From positions 1 to 27,131 of IMG/VR virus record IMGVR_UViG_3300030098_005215: a stretch of 27,131 nt of DNA. One strand, written 5' to 3'. A program made the position numbers and the translations under genes. Shown piece by piece: positions 2,238 through 14,739 of this stretch. Numbering within the stretch: the first letter of the stretch is position 1; every line of letters starts with the position of its first letter. The notes beneath the pieces are model-generated. The model was not told where the DNA came from, ran no database searches, and was given only the letters and a program-made list of their open reading frames with translations. Source of the stretch: a virus.

Positions 2238-2543
2238 CTAACCTGCAGTATAGGTTATGGCTGTTATAGATTGTAATGGTCCTTTTGTTAAGCCTAATTT
2301 TACTTCGCTATAACCAGGCTTATTGATCTCTTGTGCTAGGTGTTTTACAATATTACCCATAAATTGTTTAGTAGCAGTAATGGTTATTGTGTCATTGTCT
2401 ATTAAGGCGTTTTCTGCTGCAAAATATAACAATATAGATCCATAGACCCCAGAAGTGTAAGAAGTGTACATATACTTAAATGTATCTTTACTAAATACAT
2501 ACTCTTCTGTGTTGGCTGTTTTTATAAAGGTTATTGTACCCAT
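2238..2543 (-). CDS. Small hypothetical protein, probably virion-associated
   Basis: A 101-residue, beta-rich protein starting MGTITFIKTANTEEYVF, without signal peptide. The mixture of Thr, Ile and Tyr in alternating strands (DTITITATK; SEVKLGLTKGPLQSITAITY) resembles small phage structural proteins, but no family was recognised. It is the last gene of the long leftward operon. Its ATG overlaps the stop of the upstream basic-protein gene by one base (TAATG-type coupling), which supports co-translation and a real start. Function is unknown; a head or tail accessory role is only inferred from the neighbours. Confidence 0.7.
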   Translation of the reverse strand: MGTITFIKTANTEEYVFSKDTFKYMYTSYTSGVYGSILLYFAAENALIDNDTITITATKQFMGNIVKHLAQEINKPGYSEVKLGLTKGPLQSITAITYTAG

Positions 2544-3034
2544 TATCTAGACTTTCTTTTTATAGTGACGCCACCTTTTTGATAACCCATTTCTTTTCTT
2601 CTTTCTTCCATTTCTGCCTCCTTTTTTGCCTTTAACATTGCTGATTGAGTTTCTTCAGCATGCTCACTTCCTCTTGGGTGAAAAGACATTTCACTAACAA
2701 CTTTTTTGCCATCAGCGTCTTCTGTCCAGAATGTACCTGTCCAAGACTGGTTTTTACAACAAGATATATGGGCTTCTCTGGCTTTGGCAGCATCCTCATA
2801 AGATCTATATTGGGCACCTTTACCTTTAGTCACCCCACCAGTGTTATAATACTTTTTTCTCTTTTTAACGATACCAATACCACCCTTTTTAAAAGAAGGT
2901 TTAACTCTTCCTCTCTTGGCTTTTTTCATTACCTCTTTTTCAGCAATATCAAGCTTTCTTTTATTTAGCTTTACATCACCACCAGCTTCCTCTACAGTAT
3001 CTATTAATGACTTTGTATATTTTTCTGTATTCAT
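2543..3034 (-). CDS. Lys-rich GG-motif protein
   Basis: The frame is open from 3094, but an ATG at 3034 gives a 163-residue protein that starts 5 bases after the upstream stop instead of overlapping it by 55 bases. I prefer that start (MNTEKYTKSLIDTVEEAG). The protein is very basic and has three Gly-Gly boxes flanked by aromatic or basic residues (SFKKGGIGIV, YYNTGGVTKG, GYQKGGVTIK, the last near the C-terminus). The same style of box occurs in the other basic proteins here. A middle segment with two adjacent Cys (HISCCKNQSWTGTFW) may be a small fold. DNA-binding or virion-interior roles are plausible but unproven. Confidence 0.7.
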   Translation of the reverse strand: MNTEKYTKSLIDTVEEAGGDVKLNKRKLDIAEKEVMKKAKRGRVKPSFKKGGIGIVKKRKKYYNTGGVTKGKGAQYRSYEDAAKAREAHISCCKNQSWTGTFWTEDADGKKVVSEMSFHPRGSEHAEETQSAMLKAKKEAEMEERRKEMGYQKGGVTIKRKSR

Positions 3035-3039
3035 AGTTC

Positions 3040-3942
3040 TTATATTTGTTTGTAGTCTGTATCCATTTCTAACGCTGTTGTTGGTCTTTCCCAACTCTTC
3101 ATCTCCTGCTTCCTTCTTTCCCTTTTAAGTCTTCTACGATCTTTTTTAAAACTTTTAAGATCCTTTTTTTGCTGTTTAGCTAATTTTCTATTATTTGCTT
3201 TATTGATCTTTTTTTCGTTGATCTTATTTTTTCTAACCTTTTCCTGTTTAGGGTTTTTAGATTTAATTTCTTTACCACTAACGTAGGTATATTTACCTTC
3301 AGCATCAGGATCTATATATTGACGTCTAAGACCTTTTCTAACATACCTTCTAGCTTCTTCTGGATGACCCCCTCTTTTCTTAACTCTTTTACCATCTTCA
3401 ACAACGACATATTTCCTTTCACTTCCAACTCTTTTTTCCTTTTCTTTGTAGGTTGGAATATCTCTACCATATTTCCCTTTTATTTTTAGTTTCTTTTTTA
3501 ATGGATCCCCTTCTTCATCTTCACCTTGTTGAACATACTTTCTATGTTCTCTACCCATTTTCTTTTCTTCTTTTTTTGTAGAAACAGAATACTTATCCCT
3601 TCTACCATGTATTACATTTGGATCATCTTCATAAAGAACGTCATCATGTATTTTTTTAACAAGACCTTTTTCCTTTTTTCTTCTAAGTATTTGATCAAAT
3701 ATATTCTTCTTCTTTATATTACCTAGTCTTTTCTTTTCTATGATAGACTTTTCTGGATCCATTGCTCTTTTACGATCAATAAAATCACTCATTTTTTCAC
3801 CCCTCTTCTTTGATACTTTTTTATTTTTACCAATATGTTTTACATATGGGGATGTTTCAGATATATATTCTTTTTTAGTTCTGCTTCTGTTATCTCTCCA
3901 GTGTTTATAGCCAGATGCCTTATCATTCTTTTTTCTTGCCAT
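3040..3942 (-). CDS. Extremely Lys/Arg-rich protein
   Basis: A 300-residue protein dominated by Lys, Arg and Glu, with no hydrophobic core segments and no signal peptide. The last 80 residues (NKINEKKINKANNRKLAKQQ, then KKDRRRLKRERRKQ) are nearly continuous basic helix. There is one GG box (KKRGGHPEEARRY). It is probably natively disordered or extended and nucleic-acid binding. Its start overlaps the upstream gene's stop by one base (TAATG), fixing the ATG at 3942. It lies in a run of three basic proteins just downstream of the holin-like gene. A mirror set of three lies in the rightward operon (11055-14050). A protein packaged with DNA is a hypothesis; no known domain was seen. Confidence 0.7.
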   Translation of the reverse strand: MARKKNDKASGYKHWRDNRSRTKKEYISETSPYVKHIGKNKKVSKKRGEKMSDFIDRKRAMDPEKSIIEKKRLGNIKKKNIFDQILRRKKEKGLVKKIHDDVLYEDDPNVIHGRRDKYSVSTKKEEKKMGREHRKYVQQGEDEEGDPLKKKLKIKGKYGRDIPTYKEKEKRVGSERKYVVVEDGKRVKKRGGHPEEARRYVRKGLRRQYIDPDAEGKYTYVSGKEIKSKNPKQEKVRKNKINEKKINKANNRKLAKQQKKDLKSFKKDRRRLKRERRKQEMKSWERPTTALEMDTDYKQI

Positions 3943-4604
3943 TATTTTTCAGTTAAAATTTTATTAATACGTTCTTTTTTATCTGCTGATGCGTTTCCAT
4001 ATAAAGATCCAAATAGCCCACCAACTCCACCAGTTGTTTTTCCTTGCTTAACCTCTTTAGCTTCTTTAGCAGAACCAATAGGACCACCAGATCCCTTCTT
4101 ACCAAATAATCCACCAATACCACCACCTATACTAGAAGCAGTTTGAGTTATTAGTCCACCTAAAAAATATTTTCCCTTTCTTCTTCTTTTTCTAAGTCCT
4201 TTGTAGAAATCTTGTCTTTGTTTCTCTCTGAACTTTTCCAGTCTTTTTTTTCTCTTTTCACCCACCAACTTATAATCACCTTCAGGAACAAATGGCTTCC
4301 ACCAAGTTCCTTTTTCCCAATTAGACATCTTTTTTTCAAGATTAATTCGTTCTTCTATACTCTTTTGAAGCTTCTTGTTTCTCATATGCTTAATCTTTCC
4401 ATCCTCATCCCTGTATGTGTAATGTCTACTATATGGGTGTTTTCTGTAATGCTCTATTAATGGGTGAGTTTGTGCCTGATGTTCTTTTGCAACCTTAATA
4501 AGATCATCTTCACCATTAGTTTTACCATTAGTCTTGCCATTGGTTTTACCACCATTTACATAAACTCTAGGTCTCTTTTTATTTTTTTTCTTAAAACTAC
4601 TCAT
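3942..4604 (-). CDS. Basic protein with Gly-rich C-terminal segment
   Basis: A 220-residue protein. The N-terminus is basic and carries GG followed by TNGK repeated three times (VYVNGGKTNGKTNGKTNG, encoded by 12-bp repeats at 4513-4548). The middle is Lys/Arg/Trp-rich. The region around residues 148-205 is glycine-rich (GGLITQTASSIGGGIGGLFG and VGGLFGSLYG). Such small-residue segments can insert into or cross membranes and occur in phage internal virion or DNA-ejection proteins, but this is only a resemblance. The start overlaps the holin-like gene's stop by one base, and its own stop overlaps the next start. Tight coupling suggests a fixed stoichiometry with its neighbours. Confidence 0.65.
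   Translation of the reverse strand: MSSFKKKNKKRPRVYVNGGKTNGKTNGKTNGEDDLIKVAKEHQAQTHPLIEHYRKHPYSRHYTYRDEDGKIKHMRNKKLQKSIEERINLEKKMSNWEKGTWWKPFVPEGDYKLVGEKRKKRLEKFREKQRQDFYKGLRKRRRKGKYFLGGLITQTASSIGGGIGGLFGKKGSGGPIGSAKEAKEVKQGKTTGGVGGLFGSLYGNASADKKERINKILTEK
4513..4548 (-). repeat. Three tandem 12-bp repeats coding TNGK
   Basis: Three imperfect 12-bp units (plus-strand CCATTAGTTTTA, CCATTAGTCTTG, CCATTGGTTTTA) encode the N-terminal TNGK repeats of the basic protein. In-frame units like this can expand or contract by slippage, changing a flexible linker length. Confidence 0.75.
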
Positions 4605-4827: not shown

Positions 4828-5241
4828 TTAATCTGCAAAAGGAACATCTTCATTTTGATTAGCTGGTTCTTTTTTATCTTCTTTCTTTTTCTTTTTACCA
4901 CCAAAATATTCTACAGCATAACCTTCTTTTACTAAAGTTTTATTAATATTAATTGGTAGATCACCCTCTGGGTGTACAGTTAAATTACCTAAAACTCTTC
5001 CAAATTTGCCAACATCTGTACTCTCCACAACTAAATCACCTTTGTCTAGAAGTTCTATTAATCTAGCTTTAGAAGCAAGTCCCCTTTTCTTTTCTTCCAG
5101 ATCCCTTGTTCTAGACTCTGGGGTGTCTATACCTGCTAATCTTATTCTTTTATGAATGGTTATATCAAACCCAAGATCCATATTTACATCTATAGTATCT
5201 CCATCAATAACTCTATCTAATTTAGCTTTATACGTATACAT
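4828..5241 (-). CDS. Thermonuclease-family (staphylococcal nuclease-like) endonuclease
   Basis: A 137-residue protein of the SNase family, calcium-dependent nucleases that cut DNA and RNA. The family motifs are all visible: VIDGDT (D13, D15, T16), RLAGIDTPE (R34, D39, E42) and FGRVLG (R82), then NKTLVKEGYAV. These correspond to the metal-binding Asp residues and the catalytic Arg/Glu/Arg of the staphylococcal enzyme, so activity is expected. Unlike the secreted bacterial forms it has no signal peptide, so it would act in the cytoplasm or be carried in the virion. The C-terminal 25 residues are Lys-rich and disordered-looking. Its start overlaps the stop of the T9SS-tail gene by one base. Host DNA degradation is a likely role. 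Confidence 0.9.
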   Translation of the reverse strand: MYTYKAKLDRVIDGDTIDVNMDLGFDITIHKRIRLAGIDTPESRTRDLEEKKRGLASKARLIELLDKGDLVVESTDVGKFGRVLGNLTVHPEGDLPININKTLVKEGYAVEYFGGKKKKKEDKKEPANQNEDVPFAD

Positions 5242-6026
5242 TAGTTTAGTATATATTTTACTTTACCATTCTGAATGTATATACTTTCTGGTCTTCGTAT
5301 TGGTTGACCCAGTAAGTTATACATTTTATTATTATCTTTTGATTTATCCAAAACCTCATTTATAGCACTATTACATGGGAGACCTGTATCACAATCAATA
5401 TACTCTGTATTTATTATTTCTACATATTCTATGATTGTGTCTACTACAAATATCTCCACGTATTCTGTTTCCACTATTGTATCATATACATTGACTTCAA
5501 CCTCTTCTATAACATCTACATATAAAGTATCTAAAGCACCATCCATCCAAAGAGTATCTGTTACGTATATATATTCAGGAACTAAAACCTCAACCTCAAA
5601 TGTATCAATTACTATTTGAGTTATGTATTCTGTTTCTACTATTGTGTCAAATTGTATAATTGTTTCGTATATATAGAAGGGAACCTCAACTTCTACAGTA
5701 TCAGTAATAAATACATCAACATATTCTATTACAGGTATCTCCACATATACAGTATCACAATCAGGTGGTGGTGGCAAACATTCTTCAGGTGATGTAGGAA
5801 CAGCACCATTTTCATCGCCTTCATCTACACAATCGACCCAACCATCATTTAGCCATTGATTTATAACACAACCATTAGGGCTATATTGAGTCCAGTTTGT
5901 AGGATCATCACCACAGTAATATCCTTCAGCTTCAGCACACGCTAAACATAACTCTTGAAAATCATAATCCTGTGCATTAATAAATGATCCAATAAAAGCA
6001 AATAATACAAATAAAATCTTCTTCAT
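5241..6026 (-). CDS. Exported beta-repeat protein with type IX secretion-like C-terminal tail
   Basis: A 261-residue protein. It has a typical signal peptide (MKKILFVLFAFIGSFINAQ, cut near residue 19). A Cys-rich segment follows (C27, C30, C38, C53, C66, C83, C90). About 120 residues of alternating acidic/Thr and branched or aromatic residues come next (units such as DTVYVEIPVIEYVDV, DTIVETEYI). The last 27 residues contain MYNLLGQPIRRPESIYIQNG followed by KVKYIL. That tail resembles the T9SS type A sorting domain ('YNLLGQ ... GIYIQNGKK'), which directs Bacteroidota proteins across the outer membrane for surface anchoring. The gene follows the outer-membrane-barrel gene by 2 bases. Surface display on the infected cell is inferred. 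Alternatively it is a periplasmic repeat protein with a chance tail. Confidence 0.7.
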   Translation of the reverse strand: MKKILFVLFAFIGSFINAQDYDFQELCLACAEAEGYYCGDDPTNWTQYSPNGCVINQWLNDGWVDCVDEGDENGAVPTSPEECLPPPPDCDTVYVEIPVIEYVDVFITDTVEVEVPFYIYETIIQFDTIVETEYITQIVIDTFEVEVLVPEYIYVTDTLWMDGALDTLYVDVIEEVEVNVYDTIVETEYVEIFVVDTIIEYVEIINTEYIDCDTGLPCNSAINEVLDKSKDNNKMYNLLGQPIRRPESIYIQNGKVKYILN

Positions 6027-6028
6027 AA

Positions 6029-7081
6029 CTAAAATATTAAATAATTAAACCCAAACTTAATCTCATATATTGGTTTCATCCAATATCTTTGATGTGTTCC
6101 TTCAACAAATAAACCTAAATGTTTTGTTATTCTTGATCCAAGAACAATACCAGAATCCCACTCTATGTTGTCCCAATCTTCCACGCCATACTCAAAAGAA
6201 TACTTATCTAATCCATAATGAAGTGGTAAGCAATTAAACCAAGCATGTATCCACATTTTGTTTGTATACTTATAATAAGCTAAACCTATAACAGCACTTA
6301 ATTCTTTTTGCATACCAAGCTTATCAAGCTCTCTTTCATTGTAGGTTGCAACTGCATCACCAAAATAGTGGTTAAAGAACTCATCATTAGAAGTAGCGAC
6401 TAAAACAGAGTCCCCACCACTAACATCGTACCAATTTTGATTTACATAAAATCCCTGAACCCATTGTTCAGGAGCATAACCAAAATCTTGTGCTAATTGT
6501 TGGAAAGACGATTCTCCAGGTACCCAGAAATCTTCTATAGGATTTATTCCATATACAGGGTGCATTCTAAATACACCACCTATTGTTAGATCCCAATTAC
6601 CTTTGTTTATTCTAAATCTTGTATCAAAAGAGTTATATCTTAGATTGACTCTTTGGTTATCTTTGTACTGTAATTTGGTGACGCATTTATCTCCAAGGTA
6701 TCTAAGCCAGAAATTTTGCTCAGTATACTTATCACCACGATTGCGTATAAATGAATAATTAAATAAATACTCCCAACCAACAGCGTTACCAATAGTAACA
6801 TTATCTGCAACAGCTTTTTCAGTGCCATAATACCACGTTTTAACTTTATATTCATAATCAAATCTTGCTATTTTTCTCAAGCCTATTGTTAAATTATAAT
6901 CATAAGGATTGACTTGAGTTACATCCTCATAACCTTTATCAACAGCTATATAATCTTCTCTTTCTGTGAAAGAGGTACCTGTAGTCATTGATGTATAGAA
7001 TGTTGAATATTTAAAAAAATCTCGAATTTGTGCTTGGGCACAAATACTTATAAACAGAAATAGTATTATTATTTTTTTCAT
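6029..7081 (-). CDS. Exported beta-barrel-like outer-membrane protein
   Basis: A 350-residue protein with a clear signal peptide (MKKIIILFLFISICAQAQ). The mature chain has many aromatic-rich, amphipathic strands and a C-terminal strand ending in Phe (YEIKFGFNYLIF). A terminal aromatic on the last strand is the signature recognised by the BAM outer-membrane assembly machinery. Typical strand patterns include YDYNLTIGLRKIARFDYEYK and NWDLTIGGVFRMH. Phage-encoded outer-membrane proteins are known to block or alter receptors (for example the Cor lipoproteins of coliphages), so superinfection exclusion is a sensible hypothesis. No specific family was recognised. It lies 2 bases upstream of the T9SS-tail gene. 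A possible promoter box (TATATTTA) lies just ahead of it. Confidence 0.7.
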   Translation of the reverse strand: MKKIIILFLFISICAQAQIRDFFKYSTFYTSMTTGTSFTEREDYIAVDKGYEDVTQVNPYDYNLTIGLRKIARFDYEYKVKTWYYGTEKAVADNVTIGNAVGWEYLFNYSFIRNRGDKYTEQNFWLRYLGDKCVTKLQYKDNQRVNLRYNSFDTRFRINKGNWDLTIGGVFRMHPVYGINPIEDFWVPGESSFQQLAQDFGYAPEQWVQGFYVNQNWYDVSGGDSVLVATSNDEFFNHYFGDAVATYNERELDKLGMQKELSAVIGLAYYKYTNKMWIHAWFNCLPLHYGLDKYSFEYGVEDWDNIEWDSGIVLGSRITKHLGLFVEGTHQRYWMKPIYEIKFGFNYLIF

Positions 7082-11054: not shown

Positions 11055-12320
11055 ATGCCAAAAGTAGGAAAAAAGAAATTCCCATATACTAAAGAAGGAA
11101 TTAAGGCTGCGAAAAAATACTCTAAGAAAATAGGGGAGCCAGTATACTTTGAAAATAAGTATGAAAAAGGTGGTGTCCCAGAATACGCAGAGGGAGGAGG
11201 GGTAAAATATTACCAAATGCAAAGAAAATCAGCAGCTCCATCATTGCATGAAGCTAAACCTATGGCTGGACTAGGAGGTGGTTTAGGTGCAGGTGCAGGT
11301 GGTGCAGCAGGTGCCCCAGAGGAAGGAGAGCCAATGGAGGATCCTACAACAACAGAAGAGGGAACTCCAGGATCAACAATAGGTTGTCCTTGTGAAGATG
11401 GATCCTACTCTGAAGATTGTTGCGATCAAGAAGAAAAGAAAGAGGAACCTGTAGACGATAAAAAATGTCCAGAAGGACTATTTCCTGATGAGTCTGGAAA
11501 TTGTGTAGAACCAATGTCTAAAAAGGAAGAGAGGTTTGAGAATCAAGAACAGGAAGATGAATTTTACAAAGATACTCCACAGGGTGAAAGTAATATCAAT
11601 GCTAAAATAATTGGACCTGAAGAGGATAACAAAACTTTAATGCAAAAGGGTTCTAGTAGCTTTCCTCAAGAAGAAGCAATATCTTTAAAACCTGAAAAAA
11701 TTACTAAAATTGGAGGAGATAAAAAAATAGAACTACCTAAAAGAAGTGGTGGTGGAGAAAGTCTTGCAGATAAAATAAAAGATAAAACCTCTGGTGATGG
11801 AGAAAGTTTAGCAGATAAAATAAAAGATAAAACTTCTGGTAGTGGAGGGGGAGGTAATCCACTCGAAGCCATAAAAGAAAAAACAGAAGAAATAACAGCA
11901 AAGAAAGGAGCTATGGTTAAAAAACAAGATAAACCAAAAGTTAAAAAGAAAAATGGAGAAGAGGAAAATAAAGGATATAGACCAGGATCATTATATAATG
12001 AAAAGGGTCAAAGAATAAATGTTCCCCCTAGACCTCCAGCAGATATTGATGATGTCCCATTTAGTCGAAAGTATAAAGAAATGTATGGTCCAGCAGGAGA
12101 TGCAGATCCAGATCAATTAACATTTGGAGAAGCCTTTAGGGGTGCAAGACATGCAGGTGTGTCTAGGTTTAAATGGAGAGGTAAGTATTATACCACTGAA
12201 TTAAAAAAGGGTGAGAAAAAATATCACAAAGGTGGAAAAGTAAAAGCCAATAAAAAGGGTATGGCAATTATAATAGCTATAGGTAAACCTAAAATTAATA
12301 AAAAATCCAAAAAAAGATAA
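11055..12320 (+). CDS. Large basic, low-complexity GG-motif protein with Cys cluster
   Basis: A 421-residue, probably largely disordered protein. The N-terminus (MPKVGKKKFPYTKEGIKAAK) looks like a conserved short module. It is followed by GG boxes (YEKGGVPEYAEGGGVKYYQ), a Gly/Ala-rich stretch, and a Cys segment: CPCEDGSYSEDCC at about residues 114-126, then CPEGLFPDESGNC at about 138-150. Two tandem copies of GESLADKIKDKTSG begin at residue 234. The C-terminal part is basic and carries a last GG box (YHKGGKVKANKK). No enzyme motif is present. The Cys segment might bind metal or form disulfides in the virion. It sits 1 base after the winged-helix-like gene and 1 base before the next basic gene. 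Confidence 0.7.
   Translation: MPKVGKKKFPYTKEGIKAAKKYSKKIGEPVYFENKYEKGGVPEYAEGGGVKYYQMQRKSAAPSLHEAKPMAGLGGGLGAGAGGAAGAPEEGEPMEDPTTTEEGTPGSTIGCPCEDGSYSEDCCDQEEKKEEPVDDKKCPEGLFPDESGNCVEPMSKKEERFENQEQEDEFYKDTPQGESNINAKIIGPEEDNKTLMQKGSSSFPQEEAISLKPEKITKIGGDKKIELPKRSGGGESLADKIKDKTSGDGESLADKIKDKTSGSGGGGNPLEAIKEKTEEITAKKGAMVKKQDKPKVKKKNGEEENKGYRPGSLYNEKGQRINVPPRPPADIDDVPFSRKYKEMYGPAGDADPDQLTFGEAFRGARHAGVSRFKWRGKYYTTELKKGEKKYHKGGKVKANKKGMAIIIAIGKPKINKKSKKR
11754..11843 (+). repeat. Two tandem 45-bp in-frame repeats
   Basis: Two 45-bp units (11754-11798 and 11799-11843) encode GESLADKIKDKTSG plus one residue each. Several third-position differences between the copies indicate an old or selected duplication, not an assembly artefact. 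Confidence 0.85.
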
Positions 12321-12321
12321 A

Positions 12322-13248
12322 ATGAAAAGGATAAAGAAAGCTGCAACTAAAAAACACAAAAAATTATTTGGAAGTTCTCCTATAAAGAAGGGAGTAAGAA
12401 TTAAAAGACGAGAAAAATCTTTTAGTGGTAAAAAGTTTTTATCAAAGCTTGACGATGGTGGAAAAGTTTTATTAGATCAGGTTAATGTAAAAGATAAGGA
12501 TGAAAGCACTACTTTAAAGCCTAAAAAAGTAACTTCAGTTACTAACAACAATAATGTTGAAAAATTAGAAAGACGTAATTACAATATAGATGCCTCTACT
12601 GATCCAAGACAGGAGGAAGTTAGAGGTAGGATTTTGAGACCATCAGAAAGAGAGGTTAGAAAACCCAATATGGATGACAGGAAATTGGCAAAAATACAAA
12701 GAAGAGAAGCTGAAAGAGCAGAAAAAAACAGAAAGAGAGAAGAAGAAAGGATGCTTAGAATGTCAGATAGAGAACAAAGAAAACACGCTAGACAACAGGC
12801 TAGAGCAGAAAGAAAGATGGAGAGACAGCAAATGAGAAGGTCTAGAAAGGAACAAAGACAGTATAGAAGAACTATGCGAAGAAAAGCCAGAGAAGAAAGA
12901 AGAGAAGCTAGAGGTATGACTTACACTGGAGGAAGAAGAATATCTCCTAGAAGGTGGACTAAGAATCTTCTTGATAGAATGGGTAGAAGATATGTTGGAG
13001 AAGGTAGATTAAAAGGATATAGAGACTTTAGAACATCTAATATGAACCCTGCTTATTTTGAAACTGAATCAGGTGCACCATTGTCAAGAAAAACAAGAAA
13101 GGGTAGGGTAAGAAGTGGTGAAGGTGTTTTTGATCCATTAAGAGGATCAGTTACCAGATATATGGGTGGTGGAATGACACCACAAGAGGAAAGAGCTAAG
13201 GCTGCATTGAAAAATGCTAGATTTGAAAAAAGAAATAGAAAAGTATAA
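12322..13248 (+). CDS. Arg/Lys-rich coiled-coil-like basic protein
   Basis: A 308-residue basic protein. Residues about 110-195 form an almost uninterrupted Arg/Glu/Gln/Met helix (REAERAEKNRKREEERM ... RKEQRQYRRTMRRKARE), probably a long coiled coil or single helix. Flanking parts are basic, with GG boxes at KLDDGGKVLLD and RYMGGGMTPQE. There is no signal peptide, membrane segment or enzyme motif. It follows the Cys-cluster protein by 1 base and precedes another basic protein by 22 bases. The composition parallels the leftward-encoded protein at 3040-3942. Nucleic-acid binding or an internal virion role is inferred from charge only. Confidence 0.7.
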   Translation: MKRIKKAATKKHKKLFGSSPIKKGVRIKRREKSFSGKKFLSKLDDGGKVLLDQVNVKDKDESTTLKPKKVTSVTNNNNVEKLERRNYNIDASTDPRQEEVRGRILRPSEREVRKPNMDDRKLAKIQRREAERAEKNRKREEERMLRMSDREQRKHARQQARAERKMERQQMRRSRKEQRQYRRTMRRKAREERREARGMTYTGGRRISPRRWTKNLLDRMGRRYVGEGRLKGYRDFRTSNMNPAYFETESGAPLSRKTRKGRVRSGEGVFDPLRGSVTRYMGGGMTPQEERAKAALKNARFEKRNRKV

Positions 13249-13270
13249 ATAATAAAAAAAACTTAAAAAA

Positions 13271-14050
13271 ATGAAAATTTTAAAAAAATATTCAAATGGT
13301 GGTAAGGCTGTTAAAGGAAAAGATGATAAAGGCTTATCGAAGAAATCAAAAACGAGAAAGGGATCAAGATTAAAAAAGGAATTAGATAAAGGGATAGATG
13401 ATAAATTTGATTTTAAAAAACAAAGTGGGGGCATGGAAGCGAGTGACATCAACATGACAGATAAACAGTATGATGCTGAGGTAAGAAGAGCAAAAGCACA
13501 AAAAAAAGCTTTTAAAAGATCTTTTGGATTAAGTGAAGATTCAAATGAAAAAAGAGGATCTAAAATGAAAGAAAGAGGATCTAAAATGCAGATGAGAAAA
13601 GATTTAGTAAAAGTTTATGAAAATGGTGGAACTCCAGAAAAAGAGGGTCCATTTCCTAAAGCGAGAATTATTAAGCCAGAAGACAAATGGAAAAAAGAGT
13701 CTTACAACACTTCAGATAAAATGAAAGATCATAAGGGTGATCCAGATAAAGAACCATCACTAGCACCAGAACAACTTAAACATGATCCAAGACAAGCAGG
13801 TGCTAAACTAGATAGAAAAAGAAGAGCAAAAAGATTACTTAAAAAGTCTTATGGTCCAGCATCAGCTACAGGAAGCAAATCAGCAGGAGTCACATTATCT
13901 TCAAGAGCAAAAGGTAAGAAAAGAAAATATGTAAAAAATAGAGGAGAAGTTTATTCAGGAGGAGAGAAACGCACAAAAGTAGATATGAAGATTCCAAAGT
14001 TAGCCCAAGCACAAAACCTAGGAAGGGATGCAAGAAGGAAAAAAAGATAA
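13271..14050 (+). CDS. Lys-rich GG-motif protein
   Basis: A 259-residue very basic protein beginning MKILKKYSNGGKAVKGKDD, so a GG box sits directly at the N-terminus. A second box is at VYENGGTPEKEGPFPKA. Residues about 94-108 contain a 7-residue repeat (KERGSKM-type, encoded by near-identical 17-bp words at 13551-13588). There is no hydrophobic core or known domain. The gene is 22 bases after the previous basic gene, with an A-rich leader (AAAAAAACTTAAAAAAATG) typical of Bacteroidota translation starts. Third member of the rightward basic trio. A DNA-associated or virion-interior role is plausible, not shown. Confidence 0.7.
   Translation: MKILKKYSNGGKAVKGKDDKGLSKKSKTRKGSRLKKELDKGIDDKFDFKKQSGGMEASDINMTDKQYDAEVRRAKAQKKAFKRSFGLSEDSNEKRGSKMKERGSKMQMRKDLVKVYENGGTPEKEGPFPKARIIKPEDKWKKESYNTSDKMKDHKGDPDKEPSLAPEQLKHDPRQAGAKLDRKRRAKRLLKKSYGPASATGSKSAGVTLSSRAKGKKRKYVKNRGEVYSGGEKRTKVDMKIPKLAQAQNLGRDARRKKR
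13551..13588 (+). repeat. Short in-frame tandem repeat
   Basis: The 17-mer AAAGAGGATCTAAAATG occurs twice with a 21-bp period and encodes the repeated RGSKM segment of the basic protein. A third full copy is absent. Confidence 0.75.
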
Positions 14051-14064
14051 TAAAAAAGAATAAA

Positions 14065-14346
14065 ATGAAAGAACTATCAGAAGATTCTAAATTTGAAATA
14101 AGCTTAAAAACAATGGGTGGGATAGCTTTTTTAATAGCTACTCTAGTTGGTATGTGGTTTACGCTTCAAGCTGATATAGATGAGGCTAAACAGCTACCAG
14201 TTCCACCTGACCCAGAGGTTACTAAAATGGAGTTTAAAATGAAGGACGAAATGATACGTCAATCTATTCTTTCTACTCAAGAGGATGTTCAAGAAATAAA
14301 GGAAGATATGAAGTATCTTAGGGATAAGATAGATAAAATGGAATAA
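14065..14346 (+). CDS. Single-span membrane protein with coiled-coil tail
   Basis: A 93-residue protein. A short charged N-terminus is followed by one membrane segment at about residues 15-35 (MGGIAFLIATLVGMWFTLQA). Then comes a Pro-rich linker (LPVPPDPEV) and a charged C-terminal helix (STQEDVQEIKEDMKYLRDKI) that looks like a coiled coil. The pattern fits small phage lysis-zone proteins (spanin or holin accessory) or a membrane-tethered assembly factor; these cannot be separated from sequence. It lies directly before the exported thioredoxin-fold gene with no gap (the next ATG follows its stop). The second holin-like protein is in the opposite operon (4604-4816). Confidence 0.65.
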   Translation: MKELSEDSKFEISLKTMGGIAFLIATLVGMWFTLQADIDEAKQLPVPPDPEVTKMEFKMKDEMIRQSILSTQEDVQEIKEDMKYLRDKIDKME

Positions 14347-14739
14347 ATGAAATATTTGGATTTAAAATTACTATTATTATTTATAGTTATTCTACTAATT
14401 GGTTCAAAGGCTCTTTCACAAGAGTTTTTAACGCCTAGTAATTTTAACGATAAAGTAGCAAAAGATATTGTTGCTGTTGAGTTTTGGGTAGAATGGAATA
14501 AAACAAATGAATTTTCTGAATTTGTAGATCTTAATGACTGTGAAAAGTATAGGGTAGACATTGGTAAATACCCTGATCTGCAATCAGAATATGAAGTAAC
14601 CTGTATACCTACTGTAATTATATTTGAAAGTGGAGAAGAAAAGGAAAGATTTAAGGCAAATATAATGTTTCAATTAGAAGCAACTAAAAAAGACGTTCAA
14701 AAAAGTATTGATGAAATAATGTTAGCAAAATTTAATTAG
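14347..14739 (+). CDS. Exported thioredoxin-fold protein lacking the CxxC active site
   Basis: A 130-residue protein. Residues 1-25 are a signal peptide or N-terminal anchor (LLLLFIVILLIGSKALSQ). The rest follows thioredoxin order. IVAVEFWVEW (41-50) matches 'VLVDFWAEW', but the next four residues are NKTN instead of CxxC. Then come RVDIGKYPDLQSEYEVTCIP (69-88), matching 'NVDENPxLAxxYxVxxIP' with the cis-proline at P88, and VIIFESGEEKERF. The helix after the active site is shortened. Cys65 and Cys86 remain, and C86 lies two before the cis-Pro. Normal disulfide exchange by CxxC is impossible; a binding or chaperone role, or chemistry by C65/C86, is conceivable. It would act in the periplasm. 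Confidence 0.75.
   Translation: MKYLDLKLLLLFIVILLIGSKALSQEFLTPSNFNDKVAKDIVAVEFWVEWNKTNEFSEFVDLNDCEKYRVDIGKYPDLQSEYEVTCIPTVIIFESGEEKERFKANIMFQLEATKKDVQKSIDEIMLAKFN

Follow-up and report, generated by a model that had tools for sequence, protein, structure and literature searches.

The locus and its genes

The window analyzed here (i.e., the whole stretch of DNA under study) is a 27,131-base virus record in which a terminase and a portal protein are recognized by PHROGs. After one environmental Caudoviricetes, the nearest named terminases belong mostly to Flavobacterium, Bacteroides, Cellulophaga and Tenacibaculum phages, all of these named relatives falling below 60% identity, and this kinship makes it very probable that the host is a member of Bacteroidota. 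A sequence-only reading of this DNA had proposed that the C-terminal segment of one protein, if functional, would predict the same host phylum; the terminase signal now supports this phylum independently of the segment itself, and the leader of that protein is of Bacteroidota type.

The protein in question (hereafter, the tail protein) is the 261-aa product of an ORF at 5241..6026 on the minus strand, comprising a leader, an LDL-receptor class A (LDLa)-like head, a stalk and a compact tail resembling a signal for the type IX secretion system (T9SS). Its N-terminus reads MKKILFVLFAFIGSFINAQ and its C-terminal end, by translation, reads KMYNLLGQPIRRPESIYIQNGKVKYILN, which agrees with the text of the original reading save for a final Asn omitted there. 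Absent from that description was the N-terminal leader MKKILFVLFAFIGSFINA (5973..6026, minus strand), which is followed by Q and presumed to be cleaved before Gln19 in line with the Q-rule of Bacteroidetes signal peptides, i.e., the occurrence of Gln after the cleavage site (PMC5837995). The LDLa-like head occupies residues 24–84 (5775..5957), the stalk with its D-T-[VIL] / VYVE-type repeats residues 90–207 (5406..5759), and the compact type A-like tail MYNLLGQPIRRPESIYIQNGKVKYILN the last 27 residues, 235–261 (5244..5324), all on the minus strand. In the AlphaFold model of the protein, leader residues 2–16 are helical, the stalk is not folded, and neither stalk nor tail is modeled with confidence, the model showing only a helix and a few low-confidence strands. 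The tail does not end a generic phage protein; its carrier is dedicated to export and bears an LDLa-like head, and its gene adjoins a gene for an outer-membrane barrel (6029..7081, minus strand).

Several other genes of the window were recorded alongside. Directly after the tail gene, at 4828-5241 (minus strand), lies a gene for a staphylococcal-nuclease-type enzyme (PF00565), which has no leader and the position of which varies among relatives. At 14347-14739 (plus strand), a protein with a thioredoxin fold (PF00085, E 8e-8) is encoded, which has a leader of its own followed by Gln; in most relatives, this gene and the small ORF at 14065-14346 before it stay near the barrel and tail genes. 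The regions 2543-4604 (minus strand) and 11055-14050 (plus strand) contain several ORFs that are very basic, rich in Lys/Arg/Gly and without a known family, and some of these include stretches rich in glycine.

Conservation of the tail among relatives

A first scan of IMG/VR yielded 29 relatives of the tail protein, and a profile scan gave 214 confirmed places, the collected loci of which provided 109 distinct proteins. The tail is kept in all complete relatives: in 28 of the 29 first loci (the 29th being cut by the contig end) and in 109/109 distinct proteins, which together represent 83 distinct tail cores. Homologues without a conserved tail segment, named earlier as an observation that would count against a signal, were therefore not encountered in this set. 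The leader is equally constant: it is hydrophobic and has [AGS]Q where cleavage is presumed to occur in 109/109 distinct proteins, so that by pattern the proteins carry the Sec signal peptide expected of T9SS cargo. A divergent LDLa-like head is likewise present in every relative. Stalk length varies between relatives, and whole proteins range from 156 to 314 aa.

Over the 83 cores, the first stretch follows the motif B pattern of type A sorting domains, Y[ND]xxG[RQK]x[VI], with Y in 80, N in 71 or D in 7, [LIMV] in 83, G in 83, [QKR] in 78 and, at the final position, [IV] in all 83 (I 79, V 4). Four residues separate it from a motif D stretch, in which G (68), S (12) or D (3) is followed by [LIV] in 83, Y in 82 and I in 83; after YI come [EQ] in 81, one residue, G in 83 and K in 69 (column 21), with a further K at column 23 in 64. 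Gly is thus the rule before [LIV]YI, and the Ser that had been pointed out in its place before IYI is real, being a clade variant common to 12 of the 83 cores. Estimates of dN/dS (about 0.17 for the tail and 0.12 for head and stalk, dS being near saturation) show that the tail is under purifying selection. Taken together with its conservation, this means that the tail has been selected as a protein sequence and has not decayed, contrary to one option offered in the original reading; of the other wordings proposed there, "mimicking" fits.

When the roughly 8,600 (redundant) ORFs of these phage loci were searched with a relaxed regular expression for the tail, 254 ORFs of the family were retrieved, the sole listed matches outside the family being two contig-edge pieces of the family itself. 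In the loci that were read (the best 80 of 136 places), the same tail was found on no other phage protein, and modularity of the tail among phages therefore lacks support. No relatives of the tail protein or of the barrel were found in named phage records.

Relation of the tail to type A sorting domains

Type A C-terminal sorting domains (CTDs) are reported to contain motifs A–E and to depend on their last 13 residues, with conserved lysines; for secretion of GFP, the 22 C-terminal residues of HBP35, which comprise motifs D and E, are sufficient (PMC10202324), so a short tail can be enough. In P. gingivalis, relevance has been shown for two elements of the CTD, namely the C-terminal strand, which resembles motif E, and the beta3-beta4 loop, which resembles motif B (PMC11285876). 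Like type A sorting domains, the phage tail stands at the extreme C-terminus of a protein that begins with a leader, and it has their motif B (Y[ND][LI]xGQxI) and motif D (G[LIV]YI) as well as a C-terminal strand rich in Lys; motif D, in the form G-[IVL]-Y, and the Lys-containing last strand of motif E were recognized by inspection of alignment columns rather than by HMM. It differs in having 27 residues vs. about 70–75, in lacking motifs A and C, and in a gap of only about four residues between motifs B and D. Upstream of the tail we found neither a PNP-type motif A nor a matching length, and the seven-stranded, approximately 70-residue Ig-like fold was not seen in a low-confidence model that tests it weakly.

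Curated models do not detect this likeness. TIGR04183 and PF18962 matched neither the whole protein nor any of the 29 tails, while the CTD of a Crocinitomicaceae protein (locus L030, described below) matched TIGR04183 with 42 bits as a positive control; curated HMMs from Pfam, NCBIfam and PHROGs gave no match on the tail either. The tail is consequently not a member of the sorting-domain family as presently defined. CTDs of types B and C were also considered as its identity and rejected, there being no profile match to the phage tail.

A profile-profile comparison of the phage tails with 28 type A CTDs from the T9SS-positive Crocinitomicaceae MAG described below gave an alignment confined to the motif B half of the tail (Prob 44%), with a score of 18.9, a value reached by 0 of 200 column shuffles (best shuffle 17.3; reversed profile 6.7). 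In the reverse direction, a phage-only tail profile searched against 395 Bacteroidota genomes returned 30 places, 13 of which match the first half of the tail, 10 of these 13 being the motif B strand of C-terminal CTDs (for example, 'KIYNILGQEI...SGVYFYRL...'). About half of the genome matches of the tail profile are 9-residue 'YIENGKIKY' matches, mostly in TldD-like proteins, which we judged to be due to chance because they are internal and have no motif B in common. A 45-column tail profile gave four weak matches in the 395 genomes, none of them a CTD; a DNA pattern with the compact B-to-D spacing gave 4 matches in the same genomes, two of which look CTD-like by eye, but motifs B and D are in no case spaced as compactly as in the phage tail. 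Overall, the full-length compact tail was not found in the sampled Bacteroidota genomes, and one full CTD used as query against named phages produced one weak match.

The same compact arrangement was encountered among solved structures. In PDB, the phage tail profiles matched best at 'RIYDLSGRLVTTPLQKGIYIRNGKKYV', residues 656–682 of 692 in 4kca, the GH43 arabinanase ARN2 from a bovine rumen metagenome (PMC11813348). Another match is formed by residues 812–840 of 847 in 7jvi ('Beta-helix domain'). These matches are individually weak (E-values 0.06 to 0.7), but the mean alignment scores are 55 for 4kca and 44 for 7jvi vs. shuffle maxima of 29 and 36, respectively. Both tails have the compact order of the phage tail, namely Y[DN]LxG[RQ]xV, a spacer of 5–6 residues and G[IL][YI]IxNGK; they differ in being carried by cellular/metagenomic enzymes and in a B-D spacer that is longer by 1–2 residues. 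Since TIGR04183 and PF18962 miss these two tails as well, the matches indicate that a compact tail class exists outside phages, and the 4kca and 7jvi tails may represent an unnamed class of sorting signals. Compact tails may also occur in some bacteria without T9SS. When the two PDB tails were added to the profile, 22 of 27 inspected places fell in the last 80 residues of their proteins, and nearly all of these were read as CTDs; the enlarged profile is a less independent test, having been built with two CTD-like tails.

The type A likeness proposed from the sequence alone has thus fared unevenly: it is upheld by the profile-profile and reverse searches and is not reflected in TIGR04183 or PF18962, so that the absence of profile similarity, suggested as a way to dismiss it, holds for curated HMMs only. 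The match could in principle be coincidental, if the tail were no more than the terminal part of the stalk or the final beta-hairpin of a structural protein of the phage. The lack of any curated profile match, the low confidence of the AlphaFold strands and the chance nature of roughly half of the genome matches speak for this view. We nevertheless consider it improbable: a leader in 109/109 proteins speaks against a virion part, neither the shuffled profiles nor the shuffled 4kca tails ever reached the real scores, and the genome matches are enriched in CTDs. Judged by these comparisons, the likeness of the phage tail to motif B of type A CTDs is beyond chance.

The LDLa-like head and its cellular relative

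With an E limit of 10, the Pfam LDLa model PF00057 matches the head in 24 of 30 family members, the lowest E being 4e-4; the head encoded in the window scores 16.8 bits, below the cut-off of 24.1. Common to the head and the PF00057 modules is the core GC[VI]..W/Y..DG..DC.D.SDE with the Ca-ligand residues D, D, D and E; the corresponding positions D61, D65, D71 and E72, assigned from the known LDLa motif, are invariant in the 30 sequences. The six-cysteine LDLa pattern is incomplete, the fourth cysteine being replaced by an invariant Asn60 with the other cysteines present, and the head has extra N-terminal cysteines. Against PDB, the head profile matched megalin with an E-value of 6e-15 summed over many modules (the best single module having an i-Evalue of 0.05) and VLDLR with about 1e-6 over two modules. 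The fold match to megalin and VLDLR modules is weak: VIA-align gave structural alignments at Z>=2 with megalin, VLDLR LA1-2 and a Semliki Forest virus entry (Z 2.0–2.9 over 38–42 residues), and the top Foldseek match is a megalin complex at E 4.3. On these grounds we read the head as a divergent LDLa-like module, which is probably Ca-binding.

A search of 84,980 species genomes for cellular relatives of the head returned one, a 1138-aa protein of a Crocinitomicaceae MAG (L030, 4956-8372), which contains two heads and a complete type A CTD (TIGR04183, 42 bits). Its head copy scores 23.9 bits with PF00057, and the MAG genome has 54 Por_Secre_tail matches as well as SprA and PorV. The head therefore occurs in cellular T9SS cargo. 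Shared with the phage protein are the LDLa-like head (57% identical in the best segment) and a leader with Gln, whereas the cellular protein is long and multidomain, ends in a complete type A CTD and lacks the D-T-V stalk. With one genome among those searched, the LDLa-like head looks rare in Bacteroidota genomes. We make no claim that the Crocinitomicaceae MAG represents the host of the phage.

The outer-membrane barrel partner

The gene at 6029..7081 encodes a predicted 350-aa exported outer-membrane beta-barrel with about 12 long strands and of no known family. It was found upstream of the tail gene and on the same strand in 29/29 first loci, usually directly upstream and, in a few loci, with one or two ORFs in between; conversely, the tail protein is present in 76 of 79 barrel loci, the other three ending just past the barrel. 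In one relative (L010, 3235-4286), the barrel gene is split into two ORF pieces, possibly by a frameshift or an assembly error. The AlphaFold model of the barrel (pLDDT 76, pTM 0.73) has its nearest folds in Tsx (Z 13.8), EstA (Z 12.6), KdgM and NalP, all within Z 11–14. At the sequence level, no Pfam family, PorP/SprF and PorV included, repeats among 62 members, the window protein has no NCBIfam match, and no consistent PDB sequence relative was found. A search of 199 genomes of the order of the MAG, performed without a positive control, found no such barrel. The stability of this gene pair suggests that the barrel and the tail protein work jointly at the cell surface, and it is possible, by analogy with SprF for type B cargo, that the barrel is a dedicated receiver.

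The same gene pair lends itself to an explanation without T9SS. The tail could be an anchor or docking peptide for the phage's own barrel, the protein passing by Sec to the periplasm and binding or threading through that barrel, and the likeness to CTDs would then arise from both ending in short beta-hairpins that bind outer-membrane barrels. The near-constant pairing agrees with this, as do the resemblance of the barrel model to proteins with transport or translocation roles (Tsx, EstA, NalP and FapF among them), the shortness of a tail without motifs A and C, and the clustering of type B cargo genes with their own SprF/PorP barrels (PMC10202324). It is at odds with the specific match of the tail to motif B of type A CTDs, with the failure of the barrel to match consistently any Pfam family (PorP/SprF and PorV among them), and with the ordinary CTD of the cellular relative of the head. 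On balance, we regard docking to the barrel as unlikely.

The neighbors of the tail gene also include a 70-aa membrane-type protein and the nuclease, and these would be in place if the locus served lysis, with the barrel and the stalked protein disturbing the outer membrane late in infection and the 70-aa protein acting as a holin. A head with conserved Ca-ligand residues on a stalk does not point in this direction, no lysis family was matched, and we hold such a role to be very improbable.

Discussion

From the features described above, we infer T9SS dependence, surface display and function of the tail protein. The explanation that we favor, with reasonable rather than high confidence, is that of a phage protein displayed at the cell surface, to which the host T9SS would export it by means of a compact CTD-like signal; the tail keeps motifs B and D and the Lys-rich end without the rest, as a minimal signal would, which makes T9SS export the best explanation. 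In this scenario, the tail protein would be made during infection and carried across the inner membrane by Sec, its leader being cut before Gln19, and the host type IX secretion system would take it across the outer membrane. Sorting would depend on the C-terminal 27 residues as a compact, type A-like signal, in which motif B (YNLxGQxI) and motif D ([G/S][LIV]YI) are retained along with a last strand rich in Lys (GKxKYxx). On its stalk of variable length, the head, which is LDLa-like and probably binds Ca, would be shown at the infected-cell surface, with the co-encoded outer-membrane barrel acting at the same surface. The most likely benefit would be an altered surface of the infected cell, e.g., exclusion of other phages or changed adhesion.

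A more specific version of this proposal, drawn by analogy and in our estimate rather doubtful, would have the phage encode a pair consisting of a cargo with a minimal T9SS tail and a dedicated barrel for its reception or anchoring, a task performed by SprF/PorP in the case of type B cargo. The compact tail would, on this view, constitute a separate, unnamed class of sorting signals shared with some Bacteroidota-type enzymes and missed by current profiles.

Phage-encoded T9SS cargo has a precedent in Cryophage, for which a role in superinfection exclusion was suggested (PMC7468147). Common to both cases are phage-encoded proteins with a type A tail that presumably use the system of the host, whereas the Cryophage cargo is variable, consisting of PA14 or enzyme-like proteins whose annotation includes type A sorting domains (PMC7468147). 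Here, we deal with one conserved family on more than 100 phage contigs, with a compact tail and a barrel gene partner. New in this study, therefore, are a family conserved in more than 100 phage proteins, its LDLa-like head, a compact tail missed by profiles and the constant barrel partner.

If the favored explanation of export by the host T9SS is true, a large group of Bacteroidota phages displays a head of Ca-binding type via host type IX secretion, always with a barrel of their own nearby; these phages would thereby offer a concrete candidate for superinfection exclusion or surface remodeling. Natural selection would also be shown to act on a tail limited to motifs B, D and E, which bears on the minimal CTD needed for sorting, and annotation pipelines based on TIGR04183 and PF18962 would be missing a class of T9SS cargo.
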